A DNA stretch of 64,000 nucleotides from Acetobacterium woodii (GTDB lineage: Bacteria; Bacillota; Clostridia; Eubacteriales; Eubacteriaceae): positions 1 to 64,000 of the forward strand of contig JACQZP010000016.1 in assembly GCA_016213825.1 (NCBI GenBank), read 5' to 3'. The notes under the pieces were generated by a model. That model did no database searches, was not told where the DNA came from, and saw only the letters and a list, made by a program, of their open reading frames with translations. This document shows positions 7,701 through 19,510 of the stretch, in pieces (the first letter of the stretch is position 1; each line of letters opens with the position of its first letter). The translations under genes were made by a program, and so were the position numbers.

Positions 7701-7713
7701 ATGGCGTGCCCTG
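7701..7713. other. att-like copy of the tRNA-Arg 3' end
   Basis: ATGGCGTGCCCTG is identical to 19433-19445, the CCA and acceptor 3' strand of the tRNA-Arg(ACG) gene. A weaker copy, ATGGCGTTCCCT, lies at 7986. Thirteen bases is short, but similar flanking sequence (CACACCTAATT ... ATATAAAAAA) precedes both copies. This is consistent with an old integration at the tRNA. Confidence 0.45.
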
Positions 7714-7810
7714 GGCGTACCCTACCGTATGTACGACAATTATTCAGAAAAGCACGTGAAATTGATTAAGAATTATCTAAGTTTATTTGTCACTTTCCTT
7801 GGTGGAGGTG

Positions 7811-7860
7811 AACCGTACCAGTACACAGTGACAATTAATATTTCTGATTATCGGCATATT
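7811..7860. repeat. diverged 50-bp direct repeat, copy 1
   Basis: The segment around CCGTACCAGTACACAGTGAC recurs in diverged form at 9636-9685 (CCGTACCAGTTCACAGTGAC), the two together bracketing the PIN-like gene. From 7860 to 8013 only a decayed minus-strand peptide (VIEIIDGENLQYKLLLRTAR) can be read. Confidence 0.6.
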
Positions 7861-8013
7861 AAATAATTAAGAATCACTGTAGCTACATTATCACTATACT
7901 TGATGTAAGCAGTTCGTGCGGTTCGAAGTAACAATTTGTATTGAAGATTTTCGCCATCGATAATCTCAATTACTCGTTCATTCAAATGGCGTTCCCTACC
8001 GCGCGTACGACAT

Positions 8014-9369
8014 TTATAAAATAGAATCCATCGCTTTATCTTCTAGAAAATTGTCTTCAACATCAAAACAGTCGTCGTTCTCATCAAAATCGTCTGCACC
8101 ATCTGAATGCATCTTGGAAATGACTGTCACATCTTCAATTACATCTACAGTTATTAAGTCTTTCAATACAATTCTTTTTGTATCTCCAGAAGACCACTTG
8201 ACTGGTATACTTCCAAATGAAACTATATTAAAAAGAATAGAATCACTTCCAGCACTCCAGTCCTCGCCTGCCGTATGATTTAGTGCATCAAAAGTAATCT
8301 CGATTATCATTTCAATAGTTACCGAAACAAATTCCGCATCATCTTCATATGGAAATGGATAAACATCAACTATTTTACAATCATCTATTTGATCAAATAC
8401 CGGCATATCTACGCAACAATCTAAACTATCTTCTAAAGCTGAGATTATCTCATCTGATTCAAAAATCAACTGATTCATTTTGTCACAAATCTGTTGCTCA
8501 TAACAATCATCAAATTTTTCCTGCAATTGAGCCAATATAGTTGACTGCAAAATAAAATCTTTCACCGGTAAATCAATATAAGGTTGACAGCATTCCCAGA
8601 ATTGAACCAGTGTTAATATCATAATGTTTTTACCTGTTTCTCTTTGAAACTCTACTATGAAGTCCTCTCGGGGCGCATCATCTACAAACCAATCAGATTT
8701 TGTTGTATCAGAAGTAACAAAAATCATATCAATATTTGTTTGAAATGCCTTTTTCTTTATTAACTCCCAAATGAATAAATCATTATATTGTTTCCCATTA
8801 TGTTTGTTATTATCACCACTTCCAGGGCAAGCTTCTCCGCTATTATATCTCTCTATCAATTTTAGTTTTTCTTCTTCTGATAAGCTAATATTATCTTTTT
8901 TAAGAATAGCATCAAACAAATCATCTGCGTCGGGATGAGATGATAGGTTTTGAACTATCAACCTTAACTTTTCAATTTTATCATCAGTAATATTTTTGCT
9001 TGACCTTAATTTTTTTAACTCATCAATAAATATAGAATTGTAGCCTCTTCCTTCCCAACGGTTTAAAGTTCCATCAATCTTATTCCAAGGAATCGGACGC
9101 TTTTTTAAATGTTTAAAAATGCCATTTTCATATTTTTGATGAAATATGCTGTTTTTGATCAACTCTCGTTGAATATTAAACTCCTCACAATTATATTCAG
9201 TTTCCCAAAGATGTCCGCTCATAAATAGATATGAAAGCACATCTTTGATATTAATTGCTTGTTCATATTCCCATTCATACATTCGCCCCATACTACATGT
9301 ATCAAATGTAATTATACCGTTATACCATAAGTCTTTAAAAAGCTCTTTATTAATATATGAACCATTCAA
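8014..9369 (-). CDS. PIN-like domain protein (DUF4935-type)
   Basis: A 451-residue protein. Residues 1-270 resemble the PIN_8/DUF4935 group: N-terminal acidic strand GIITFDTCSMGRMYEW (D23), an all-helical middle, then DMIFVTSDTTKSDWF with acidic residues where PIN nucleases place their last carboxylates. Residues about 300-451 are an acidic tail of unknown fold ending in a run of D/E. PIN domains are Mg-dependent RNases, and this subgroup often lies in defence islands as stand-alone proteins. The start is a TTG at 9369 with GGGAG about 11 bases upstream. No antitoxin gene is adjacent. The protein sits between two diverged direct repeats. Confidence 0.65.
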   Translation of the reverse strand: MNGSYINKELFKDLWYNGIITFDTCSMGRMYEWEYEQAINIKDVLSYLFMSGHLWETEYNCEEFNIQRELIKNSIFHQKYENGIFKHLKKRPIPWNKIDGTLNRWEGRGYNSIFIDELKKLRSSKNITDDKIEKLRLIVQNLSSHPDADDLFDAILKKDNISLSEEEKLKLIERYNSGEACPGSGDNNKHNGKQYNDLFIWELIKKKAFQTNIDMIFVTSDTTKSDWFVDDAPREDFIVEFQRETGKNIMILTLVQFWECCQPYIDLPVKDFILQSTILAQLQEKFDDCYEQQICDKMNQLIFESDEIISALEDSLDCCVDMPVFDQIDDCKIVDVYPFPYEDDAEFVSVTIEMIIEITFDALNHTAGEDWSAGSDSILFNIVSFGSIPVKWSSGDTKRIVLKDLITVDVIEDVTVISKMHSDGADDFDENDDCFDVEDNFLEDKAMDSIL

Positions 9370-9992
9370 TTAATTATTTCTCCCAATTTATTATCATTGT
9401 GATAAATTTATGTCTGAGTAATGCATTACCGAATACCACCAATGGCCCACAAATATGAATAAATAGATAAAAGGCACATTGTATGTATTCTAGTCAATCA
9501 AAATTGTAATACTAGGGAATTCGAACATTTTATTGGACTGATTATATCAATCCTATGATACGTCTATAATCCAATGGATTCTTTTCTCCAAGGGCACAAA
9601 ATATAATGTCCAACCTCATGTGCACATTATAGCGGGCCGTACCAGTTCACAGTGACAAATAACATTTCTGATTATAGGCATATTTGATAGTGTTGAACTT
9701 TAATTAGTTAAAATTATTTAATCTAATTGGAATTATGAAATCTATCCGACCTACTGATTACGAATCAGTAGGTAAATGGCTTATTGCAGGCTTTTCTATA
9801 TCATATACGACATATTTACGACACGTTTTACTCTTTTTTTCAATTGCTAACACATAGGGTCCGTCATCCTTTATGCAAGACACTTGTTGCCAAAGGAAAT
9901 ATGCAAATAAATTAAGAATCACTTTGCTTGGCGGAAGTGTACTATAGAAGTAAATTGTCAATTTGCGACATTATAACTTGTCTTTAATAAAG
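9370..9992. other. intergenic stretch with gene remnants
   Basis: No intact gene is supported. A 67-codon minus frame at 9758-9961 contains STLPPSKVILNLFAYFLW, which resembles YSDNVATVILNYL read on the minus strand at about 7875. Both look like ends of related decayed genes. The direct-repeat copy at 9636-9685 lies here as well. Confidence 0.4.
9636..9685. repeat. diverged 50-bp direct repeat, copy 2
   Basis: Matches 7811-7860 over most positions (ACAAATAACATTTCTGATTA against ACAATTAATATTTCTGATTA). See the first copy. Confidence 0.6.
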
Positions 9993-10487
9993 CTATGAGT
10001 ACATGATTTTATTAATCTCATTTGCGAAAACATCACCACTCAACTTAAAATTACTGTAACTGAATATATTCACGTCATCTCGGAGGGTAACTTCCGGAAT
10101 TCTTAATAAAAAATCAACAGCACATGATAGATTATTTAAATCGTTTCTTACCGCTTTAGTTAGTTCTGTTATTGTGTCAAGATTATAATTACCTGATTCG
10201 AAATTATGTCTCAGTTCATCATAATATTTTGAATTGCCAGTGTTTGTAACATTCTTGGCGAAATATGAAGAATTCATTTTTGCCCATTTGATTTCATTCT
10301 TCAATTCTGCATCATTCTCTAAAACATTTATTACTAAATCCAATAGGCATTTACTTTGTTCTTCGCTTAGAGTATTGTAGTGTCTTCTAATGTTTACCAA
10401 CAGGTTTGACACTGTTTCCACATCAAAAGAACCATCTCTAAAACTCTTACATAAAACATTGAAATCTCGTTTAGCGTTTAAATCCAT
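9993..10487 (-). CDS. hypothetical helical protein
   Basis: A 164-residue soluble protein that I do not recognise. It is predicted to be mostly helical from its Leu/Asn/Glu pattern, without signal peptide or membrane segment. There are two similar halves: SFRDGSFDVETVSNLLVNIR near the N-terminus and NFESGNYNLDTITELTKAVR in the middle, so it probably arose by internal duplication of an about 80-residue unit. GGAGACGAAAT-type sequence precedes the ATG. It lies downstream of the broken polymerase gene on the same strand. Confidence 0.55.
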   Translation of the reverse strand: MDLNAKRDFNVLCKSFRDGSFDVETVSNLLVNIRRHYNTLSEEQSKCLLDLVINVLENDAELKNEIKWAKMNSSYFAKNVTNTGNSKYYDELRHNFESGNYNLDTITELTKAVRNDLNNLSCAVDFLLRIPEVTLRDDVNIFSYSNFKLSGDVFANEINKIMYS

Positions 10488-18788: not shown

Positions 18789-18873
18789 ATGAACCTCCCT
18801 TTTGTGGTATTGTTTTAATTGTAAGATTAATGAACTGTTTTGTCAAATTATGAAATATATTCTGCAACTAATG

Positions 18874-19110
18874 CTACTTCCCTTCAACAAACCATTTTGG
18901 TTTTTCATAATAGACATAAACGTCTTTATTTTTAATTCGACAAAGATACCGGGTTCCCTGTCCACCAACCTTTAAAGACGATCTAGCCCGGATATCAAAG
19001 ATAAAGTCAACGTCAAACTCTCGACCATCTTCTCACAAAATCTTCATTGGAATGATCTTTCCATCTTTTTCATGTTTTGCAATTACCGGCACGAATTTCT
19101 TTACCAACAT
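18874..19110 (-). pseudogene. small polymerase-associated protein, broken by an in-frame stop
   Basis: From ATG 19110 the frame reads MLVKKFVPVIAKHEKDGKII, meets TGA at codon 26 (19035-19033), and then continues as EDGREFDVDFIFDIRARSSL, VGGQGTRYLCRIKNKDVYVY and YEKPKWFVEG to 18874. I recognise this as the short conserved protein often found next to dinB-type genes in Firmicutes (function unknown). It sits just downstream of a dinB remnant, so both belong to one decayed cassette. Confidence 0.6.
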
Positions 19111-19114
19111 AAAA

Positions 19115-19380
19115 AAATTTTAAAAATATGAAATGGGATAGATGACATGATCATTTTAAGCCTCCAGGCACCCCATCGTTTCTTACAGTCAATTGTCACA
19201 GCTCGTCGCACCACCAGATTGCCAAAGCTTTTTTCAAGCCATCCACGGTATCAAGCAGTCTTGCCGAGTAAGTATGTAACAATAACACATGACCAGTCAT
19301 AACAGTTGCTGAAATATTTGTTGGCTTTCTCAATACAAACAAGCGAATGTCTCAGCGTTGTTCCATCTCACACCTTAATT
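19115..19380 (-). pseudogene. remnant of a second Y-family polymerase gene
   Basis: The DNA at 19150-19265 matches the 3' part of the polymerase at 10610-10735: CACCCCATCG, GTCAATTGT, ATTGCCAAAG and TCCA are shared, and the minus-strand peptide LDTVDGLKK corresponds to LDDAVDGLKK. It is frameshifted and internally deleted; upstream a start-like ATG GAA CAA with a TGA two codons later lies at about 19365. Only decayed ends remain. Confidence 0.6.
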
Positions 19381-19433
19381 TCAAATATAAAAAAAACACC
19401 TATAAAATATAGGTGGCAATTAAATCAATAAAA

Positions 19434-19510
19434 TGGCGTGCCCTGAGGGATTCGAACCCCCGACCTTCCGGTTCGTAGCCGAACGCTCTATCCAGCTGAG
19501 CCAAGGGCAC
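19434..19510 (-). tRNA. tRNA-Arg (anticodon ACG)
   Basis: The minus strand folds as a cloverleaf: acceptor GTGCCCT/AGGGCAC, D arm GGCTCAGCTGGATAGAGC, anticodon stem TTCGG with loop CTACGAA (ACG), T arm with GGTTCGAATCC, discriminator G and encoded CCA (19434-19436). It is a common integration target and marks the right end of the accessory island. Confidence 0.95.

Follow-up and report, generated by a model that had tools for sequence, protein, structure and literature searches.

At a tRNA-Arg gene of Streptomyces, integrative elements have accreted together with remnants, and some strains carry the empty site (PMC9513070). That source describes actinomycete integrative and conjugative elements (AICEs) of three families, bounded by identical direct repeats. 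Large serine recombinases acting at tRNA genes are represented by AICEs at tRNA-Leu of Mycobacterium and by the Ralstonia phage phiRSM1, which uses the 3' end of tRNA-Ser (PMC3218068), while an account of Mycobacterium abscessus prophages gives serine integrases for 6 of 29 chromosomal attachment (attB) sites and tRNA or tmRNA genes as the targets of sixteen tyrosine systems (PMC10654092). Here we describe a locus in Acetobacterium woodii that touches on both themes. The stretch analysed (the window) covers the opening 64 kb of contig C4 in a genome of 3.94 Mb, and it holds about 11.7 kb of island DNA adjoining the 3' end of a tRNA-Arg(ACG) gene. Very probably an island has grown here by multi-layer accretion at this tRNA 3' end, its left end founded by an element with a large serine recombinase.

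The likeness to Streptomyces lies in elements and remnants stacked at one tRNA-Arg gene and in the occurrence of empty sites; the window differs in belonging to a Firmicute, in having a single boundary formed by a serine-recombinase scar and in holding no functional element. With the Mycobacterium and phiRSM1 cases it shares the association of a large serine recombinase with a tRNA gene, whereas the tRNA, the hosts and the recombinase are different and in the window the scar alone remains. The island type is ordinary and the recombinase at its founding end uncommon. Among the papers listed for Acetobacterium genomic islands and integrative elements, none concerned this locus.

The tRNA target and the left end of the island

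The target, tRNA-Arg(ACG), occupies positions 19434-19510 on the minus strand (ARAGORN; Rfam RF00005, 62.9 bits) and is the sole match above cut-off in an Rfam scan of 5000-20500. Its 3' end contributes to a 13-base core, ATGGCGTGCCCTG, whose only plus-strand copies in the whole 64 kb, both strands searched, lie at 19433-19445 and, displaced, at 7701-7713; the chance expectation of such a match in the window is 0.0006. The core copies are accompanied by a short similar flank (7627-7658 against 19364-19395, 84% alike over 32 nt), and over a longer alignment the two flanks have diverged, with 44 of 75 columns matching. Between the cores the GC content per kb is 0.28-0.39. It is higher at 1-5 kb (0.42-0.50) and at 19-25 kb (0.36-0.42); the 5-7 kb interval outside the cores is likewise AT-rich (0.32-0.34). 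An earlier reading of the sequence, the original prediction, had proposed an old, immobile island of about 11.7 kb of AT-rich DNA set between a 13-base identity to the tRNA and similar flanking sequence, with no integrase left, and each of these elements was borne out.

The arm to the right of the displaced core reads GGCGTACCCTACCGTATGTACGACAA, and core and arm together form a 38-bp left attachment site (attL), composed of a host half and a P' arm, at 7702-7739 on the plus strand. Relatives for comparison comprised 40 genomes of the family, 19 from the genus Acetobacterium and 21 others; genomes are labelled G000, G001 and so on. When the 38-mer was sought in the 19 genus genomes with up to 3 mismatches, six sites with 0-1 mismatch were recovered in four genomes (one each in G000 and G012, two each in G011 and G002), and the reversed-pattern control returned none. 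The window scar is an exact match to the G012 site and to one of the G011 sites. Immediately to its left, at 7648-7700 on the minus strand, lies the terminator-type flank of the displaced tRNA end, 89% identical to G003; by flank alignment, G003 and G004 have this terminator type behind their tRNA, and G012 has it next to its scar.

A parent-type element is present in G011. There, an open reading frame (ORF) of 497 aa with resolvase (PF00239), recombinase (PF07508) and zinc-ribbon (PF13408) domains terminates 13 bases within the tRNA 3' end (locus L067, ORF 5807-7300, tRNA 5743-5819), and a right arm, TTGTCGTACATA, sits between its last codons and the core. The pattern of right arm plus core occurs in 1 of the 19 genus genomes, G011 only. 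When the G011 arms are joined into the attachment site of the excised element (attP), they match each other as a perfect inverted repeat of 12 bp. Its centre is precisely the TG with which the 13-base identity ends, the proposed crossover dinucleotide; arms of this length were reached by 1 of 1000 shuffles. Inverted arms centred on the crossover dinucleotide are the geometry expected for a serine integrase. The element extends over about 103.5 kb between the tRNA (3866.8 kb) and the scar (3970344), and among its products are a relaxase, a VirB4-like ATPase and the coupling protein of a type IV secretion system. Another such scar, at C1:7758, would lie about 25.6 kb beyond it if contig C1 is circular. 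The closest NCBIfam model to the enzyme is CcrB (E=5e-57). Its three domains are those of large serine recombinases, its target is tRNA-Arg, and its score is far below the CcrB cut-off (194 bits against 900).

The stop codon of the G011 recombinase is supplied by the tRNA, so that on the excised circle the predicted protein would gain 18 aa. Across the six scars the predicted extension is 15-22 aa. The idea that this longer frame is meaningful was dropped, as open 15-codon stretches arose in 824 of 2000 trials and the extension is no more than chance would give.

The recurrent scar and the G011 arms indicate that the left boundary of the island is the attL of a serine recombinase element and not a classical tyrosine-integrase end. 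Neither a recombinase nor a right arm is present in the island itself: the tyrosine integrase family PF00589 has 7 matches genome-wide and none on the window's contig, PF07508 has no match anywhere in the genome, and neither the G011 serine nor the G008 tyrosine recombinase gave a tblastn match in the window. Among 10 window ORFs scanned with Pfam, no relaxase, coupling protein or VirB4 was found.

The junction at 7986 and the same tRNA gene in relatives

Within the island, a third and weaker copy of the core, ATGGCGTTCCCTACCG, starts at 7986 and is real beyond a chance repeat. The sequence ATGGCGTTCCCTACCGCGCGTACGACA at 7986 stands 274 bp behind the first arm and has counterparts 173 bp behind the scar in G011 and 182 bp behind it in G012. 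An initial interpretation, which saw in the copy a constant feature of the left end of a single element because similar sequence lies behind the G011 and G012 scars, was abandoned after comparison with a right end in G016, which abuts a tRNA-Arg 3' half. In that comparison the 70 bases preceding each site were scored against the G016 right end, with 1000 island 70-mers as background. The window site scored 68, against a background 99th percentile of 36 and values of 18-28 for the flanks of the six attL sites; the background maximum was also 68, the window junction's own score. Five other sites (in G011, G012, contig C111 of G002, G018 and G013) scored 71-92 and are likewise built of a right end, a core and a P' arm in succession. 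No tandem junction was found with the pattern used at the scars at C1:7758 of G011 and on contigs C53 and C182 of G002. In G011, the DNA past the second arm resembles that past the C1:7758 scar (75 of 96 columns).

On the strength of these matches, the copy at 7986-8011 (plus strand) is a tandem junction between two elements, consisting of a shortened core and the P' arm of the next element. The 272 bp that precede it (7714-7985, plus strand) are a remnant in which the first element has kept a left arm and a right end and lost its middle; the left end of this remnant is common to G011, G012, G002 and G009, and its right part is like the right end in G016. Two copies of a dispersed repeat, R, lie within it (7759-7864 and 7861-7960, both plus strand). 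Because 7986 joins the right end of one element to the left arm of the next, the earlier suggestion that the weak third copy signals stepwise insertion is upheld.

An island-free arrangement is found in G010, the best match to the tRNA flanks among the 40 relatives, with a right flank 92% identical over 8.5 kb. In this genome the window segments 2110-7454 (90.7%), 7516-7673 (73%) and 19364-27855 (92%) are consecutive and 11.7 kb are missing. The tRNA followed directly by the DNA left of 7700, which the original prediction named as the telling comparison, is therefore what G010 presents, possibly through secondary loss. Over the 70 bases next to its tRNA, G010 is closer to the right copy in the window (60 of 71 columns) than to the left (49 of 75). 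The locus fits either an unoccupied site or one emptied by recombination between both flanks. The G010 tRNA-Arg (L063) differs from that of the window in both acceptor-stem strands and in the discriminator base, despite flanks 92-95% identical.

Occupied sites of various kinds complete the picture. In G012 and G002, islands at the same tRNA end on their far side in the left-end sequence 7700-7864, and the span from tRNA to scar is about 28 kb and about 30.7 kb, respectively. In G009 the distance is about 0.9 kb, to a scar that has diverged. Tyrosine enzymes also occur here, as a 408-aa integrase about 1.1 kb from the tRNA in G008 and as a weak, sub-cut-off C-terminal PF00589 remnant beside it in G003, so the tRNA-Arg gene is a hotspot for both recombinase classes. 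The genes at this tRNA in G001 are read from their ORFs as a fatty-acid or butyrate-type operon. Around position 2137 of contig C182 in G002 (L108), the tRNA-Arg(ACG) is without its 3' half, which may be a real loss or a draft-assembly artefact.

Course of events and rival explanations

Three sets of remnants add to the scar and the tandem junction. To the left of 7701, pieces of a HipA-like gene are distributed over 6150-7647 on the minus strand (tblastn with an intact 373-aa G011 protein; N-terminal piece 7452-7647, C-terminal piece 6150-6197 weak, E=0.024; the HipA_C profile match is weak and below cut-off). Between them, an RMKL-like methyltransferase gene lies at 6228-7223 on the minus strand (PF01170, E=2.2e-9; the PADLOC match to mad2 spans part of the model only). 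It is 95% identical in G010 and in G003, and since the tRNA flank of G003 is merely about 80% identical, the gene has probably moved between lineages. Farther right, a remnant of the 3' half of tRNA-Thr(CGT), together with a conserved stretch of about 150 bp, occupies 9737-9925 on the plus strand and recurs across the genus; its identity comes from matches of phage tRNA-Thr to the G016 copy. Finally, a dinB/umuC-like Y-family polymerase gene with a frameshift near 11181 lies at 10585-11831 on the minus strand (PF00817 and PF11799 on two frames; tblastn with a 425-aa G012 relative), and the 3' remnant of a second dinB gene lies at 19123-19265 on the same strand. Because the older HipA-like pseudogene and the methyltransferase lie to its left, position 7701 is an inner junction. 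The bracketing of the island by 7701 and the tRNA, as originally proposed, thus stands as regards the core copies and fails as regards the outer limit of acquired DNA.

A course of events that would account for the locus begins with an integrative element whose large serine recombinase recombined attP with the tRNA 3' end at TG, leaving the attL at 7702-7739. A further element would have inserted on the tRNA side and produced the tandem junction at 7986, the first element being now reduced to 272 bp. Material of the dinB module, including the two dinB remnants, may have come partly from the tRNA-Thr hotspot, the scar of which is at 9737. The original tRNA-side end would have been replaced by a tRNA flank of the G001 kind, and the remainder, no longer excisable by the founding recombinase, would persist as a carrier of a few open cargo genes. 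This order of events is inferred.

Several observations weigh against the serine-founded, multi-layer reading. Integration of serine recombinase elements into tRNA genes was termed rare in 2011 (PMC3218068). No recombinase sequence is left in the window, so that what ties the island to the G011 enzyme is the att arms together with an 82% match of the left ends; of the six attL scars, only that at 3970344 in G011 pairs with an intact right arm. The right end of the window's island, a tRNA-proximal flank of the G001/G010/G012 type at 19266-19433 (minus strand), is not the right end of a serine element and is without the right (P) arm, and the 11.7 kb are for this reason not one element. At the tandem junction, the window DNA past the second arm is unlike that past the C1:7758 scar of G011 (55 of 103 columns), the R-type right end has a long tRNA half as its neighbour in G016, and the right end of the G009 unit differs (score 28). 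The right junction of the window is matched by that of G001 (87% over 18772-19996), and since G001 is more distant than G010, G010 may once have had an island and lost it. The defence function of the open cargo genes, discussed below, is putative.

The most serious competitor is a classical tyrosine-integrase island, in which a tyrosine integrase, since lost, would have used the 13-base identity in the tRNA as its core. The integrase of G008 and the sub-cut-off remnant of G003 at the same tRNA speak for it, as does the terminator type at 7648-7700, which is that of G003. Yet the identity ends at TG, 13 bases into the tRNA, where other scars in the genus carry 44-56 bp up to the anticodon, and the sequence that follows the core is the P' arm of the serine element, identical in G011 and G012; we consider this explanation unlikely. 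In a simpler history, one conjugative element would have been inserted once, lost its middle and brought all the cargo with it. The dinB module does lie near the left part of the G011 element, as such a history would have it. The junction at 7986, the two dinB 3' ends, the tRNA-Thr remnant, the non-serine right end and the HipA-like layer nevertheless require several events, which leaves the single insertion quite improbable. That the 13-base match arose by chance in an ordinary variable stretch of chromosome beside the tRNA, an outcome that would have undone the original prediction, might be argued from the brevity of the match and the divergence of its flanks (44 of 75 columns). This view is refuted by the expectation of 0.0006, the 38-bp scar elsewhere and the island-free G010, and we give it practically no weight.

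Layers, cargo genes and the slot beside dinB

Under the reading as a multi-layer accretion island, the layers run from left to right as follows: HipA-like gene and methyltransferase; serine scar, remnant and junction (7702 to about 8011); PIN_8 gene; tRNA-Thr remnant and dinB; helix-turn-helix (HTH) and orphan genes; insertion-sequence fragment, slot module and second dinB end; tRNA flank. The HipA-like layer is presumably the oldest, an order that we infer along with that of the other layers. Beyond them, 1-2556 encodes a large repeat-rich protein, BspA-like by eye, and 3033-5053 a LytTR-type regulator and a histidine kinase, also by eye; a close relative of the kinase (90%) is found only in G010 among the 40 relatives.

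The R repeat occurs a third time at 9631-9689 on the plus strand (89% to 7813-7865 over 53 nt). It measures 60-120 bp with a conserved GGTGGAGGCGGACCGTACCGGTTCAAGGTGACAATT, is represented by 52 distinct sequences in the loci compared and varies in a partly codon-like manner. By its translated core it is specific to the genus, being present in 15 of the 19 Acetobacterium genomes and in none of the 21 other family genomes. We rejected the possibility that R forms the 3' part of some long gene, as matches in 15 of the 40 family genomes included none in an open frame of more than 119 aa. Compact units of about 350 bp, in which the tRNA-Thr(CGT) 3' half and a tRNA-Arg 3' half occur together with the stretch of about 150 bp and R, were seen at L111 16180-16545, L113 15145-15500 (minus) and L114 14628-14980 (minus), loci on which ARAGORN reports no tRNA gene. 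Such units could enable elements to pass from one tRNA hotspot to the other.

The original prediction described the genes of the island as defence-like and broken. Broken they are in the case of dinB, the second dinB end, two further genes of the slot module (see below) and an insertion-sequence fragment; four other genes are open. The first of these, at 8014-9369 on the minus strand, encodes a 451-aa PIN_8 domain protein (PF18476, E=1.9e-14, 54.6 bits against a cut-off of 26.1), a putative nuclease by its family, for which no relative was found in plasmids. It is followed by a 164-aa ORF of no family (9993-10487, minus strand). An open 145-aa HTH-type ORF (12776-13213, plus strand) has weak matches to PADLOC HTH_VI (E=7e-4) and phrog_8. 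An open orphan ORF of 493 aa (13284-14765, plus strand) has no Pfam match, a weak match to phrog_26067 and a sub-cut-off match to a Rha-type model; no relative was found in 397 other genomes of the phylum, in pattern scans of genome and viral contigs, in phages or among PDB sequences, and an AlphaFold model of it, at a mean pLDDT of 30, was set aside. Directly behind it, at 14819-14861, stands a perfect 18-bp inverted repeat with a 7-nt loop, possibly a terminator. The insertion-sequence fragment (14983-15610, plus strand), which has many copies in the genus, is one that we take to be IS256-like from its motif.

The fourth open gene, at 15992-17401 on the minus strand, encodes a 469-aa ApeA-like HEPN protein with HEPN_Apea (PF18739, 44.9 bits against a cut-off of 24.4) and ApeA N-terminal (PF18862, 30.0 bits against 25.5) domains and PADLOC matches to PDC-S58 and Cas13-ApeA. 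HEPN proteins carry a catalytic R-x4-6-H motif, which is present as RNYYSH in both the window protein and the G013 copy. The protein shares its HEPN_Apea and ApeA_NTD1 domains and the R-x4-H motif with the described single-gene ApeA system (PMC7699616, PMC3710099); it differs in being a 469-aa relative known by sequence and in lying in a slot beside a dinB module. A relative in Acetobacterium tundrae DSM 9173 is 79% identical, and against the G013 copy (79% protein identity) dN/dS is 0.28, a value from two sequences only. Given both domains, the RNYYSH motif and this ratio, the gene has probably been kept by selection. By analogy with its family, the product is likely an RNase that cuts RNA in infected cells, and the open cargo genes as a whole would most plausibly serve phage defence.

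The ApeA-like gene lies in a variable slot. Its neighbours on the tRNA side are pseudogenes on the minus strand, found by tblastn: that of a 453-aa Cys-rich protein with a frameshift and one stop (17431-18788; 86-96% to the intact G012 protein) and that of an 80-aa protein of the dinB module with two stops (18871-19110). On its other side, at 15793-15977 (minus strand), is a conserved block with which, in G003, G007 and G008, the gene of a small serine resolvase begins; the family match (PF00239/PF02796) is established for the G003 ORF, which gave no tblastn match in window positions 1-22000. In relatives, the dinB, 80-aa and 453-aa genes are followed by a variable stretch that ends at this block. 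Nine loci were compared (the window, G011, G001, G012, G002, G003, G007, G008 and G013), and seven have both the dinB-module block and this second one. The second block is 67% identical in G001 and reduced to a 36-bp piece in G013, while G008 has it at about 70% with an additional piece of 31 bp; the G012 contig ends, and the second block was not found in G002. The seven loci hold five contents: the ApeA-HEPN gene (window, G013), ORFs of 212 and 121 aa (G011, G008), the 212-aa ORF (G001), a sub-cut-off Abi_alpha match with two further ORFs (G003), and no ORF of at least 70 aa (G007). The 212-, 121- and 313-aa ORFs tested gave no family match. At the slot position in G002 are a BsuBI/PstI-type restriction enzyme and an Eco57I-type methyltransferase. 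In G008, beyond the resolvase and outside the slot, lies a gene for a candidate defence protein of the HKD+Snf2 type.

It is tempting, if doubtful, to suppose that mobile elements of Acetobacterium carry a dedicated cargo slot and that the island's right half shows it in one of its states, the contents being exchanged by the resolvase or by recombination between the fixed blocks; the block at the resolvase start is possibly a res site. The slot beside dinB is a place to seek undescribed defence genes.

With this locus, the integrations of serine recombinases at tRNA 3' ends gain a further example, one for which the crossover dinucleotide can be predicted, and the G011 recombinase with its attP/attB pair could serve as a tool for acetogen genetics. 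At one tRNA gene, the genus offers a comparative series, from no island in G010 through about 0.9 kb in G009, 11.7 kb in the window and about 28 kb in G012 to about 103.5 kb in G011, a record of how a tRNA island is founded, stacked, decayed and retained as a store of defence-like genes.

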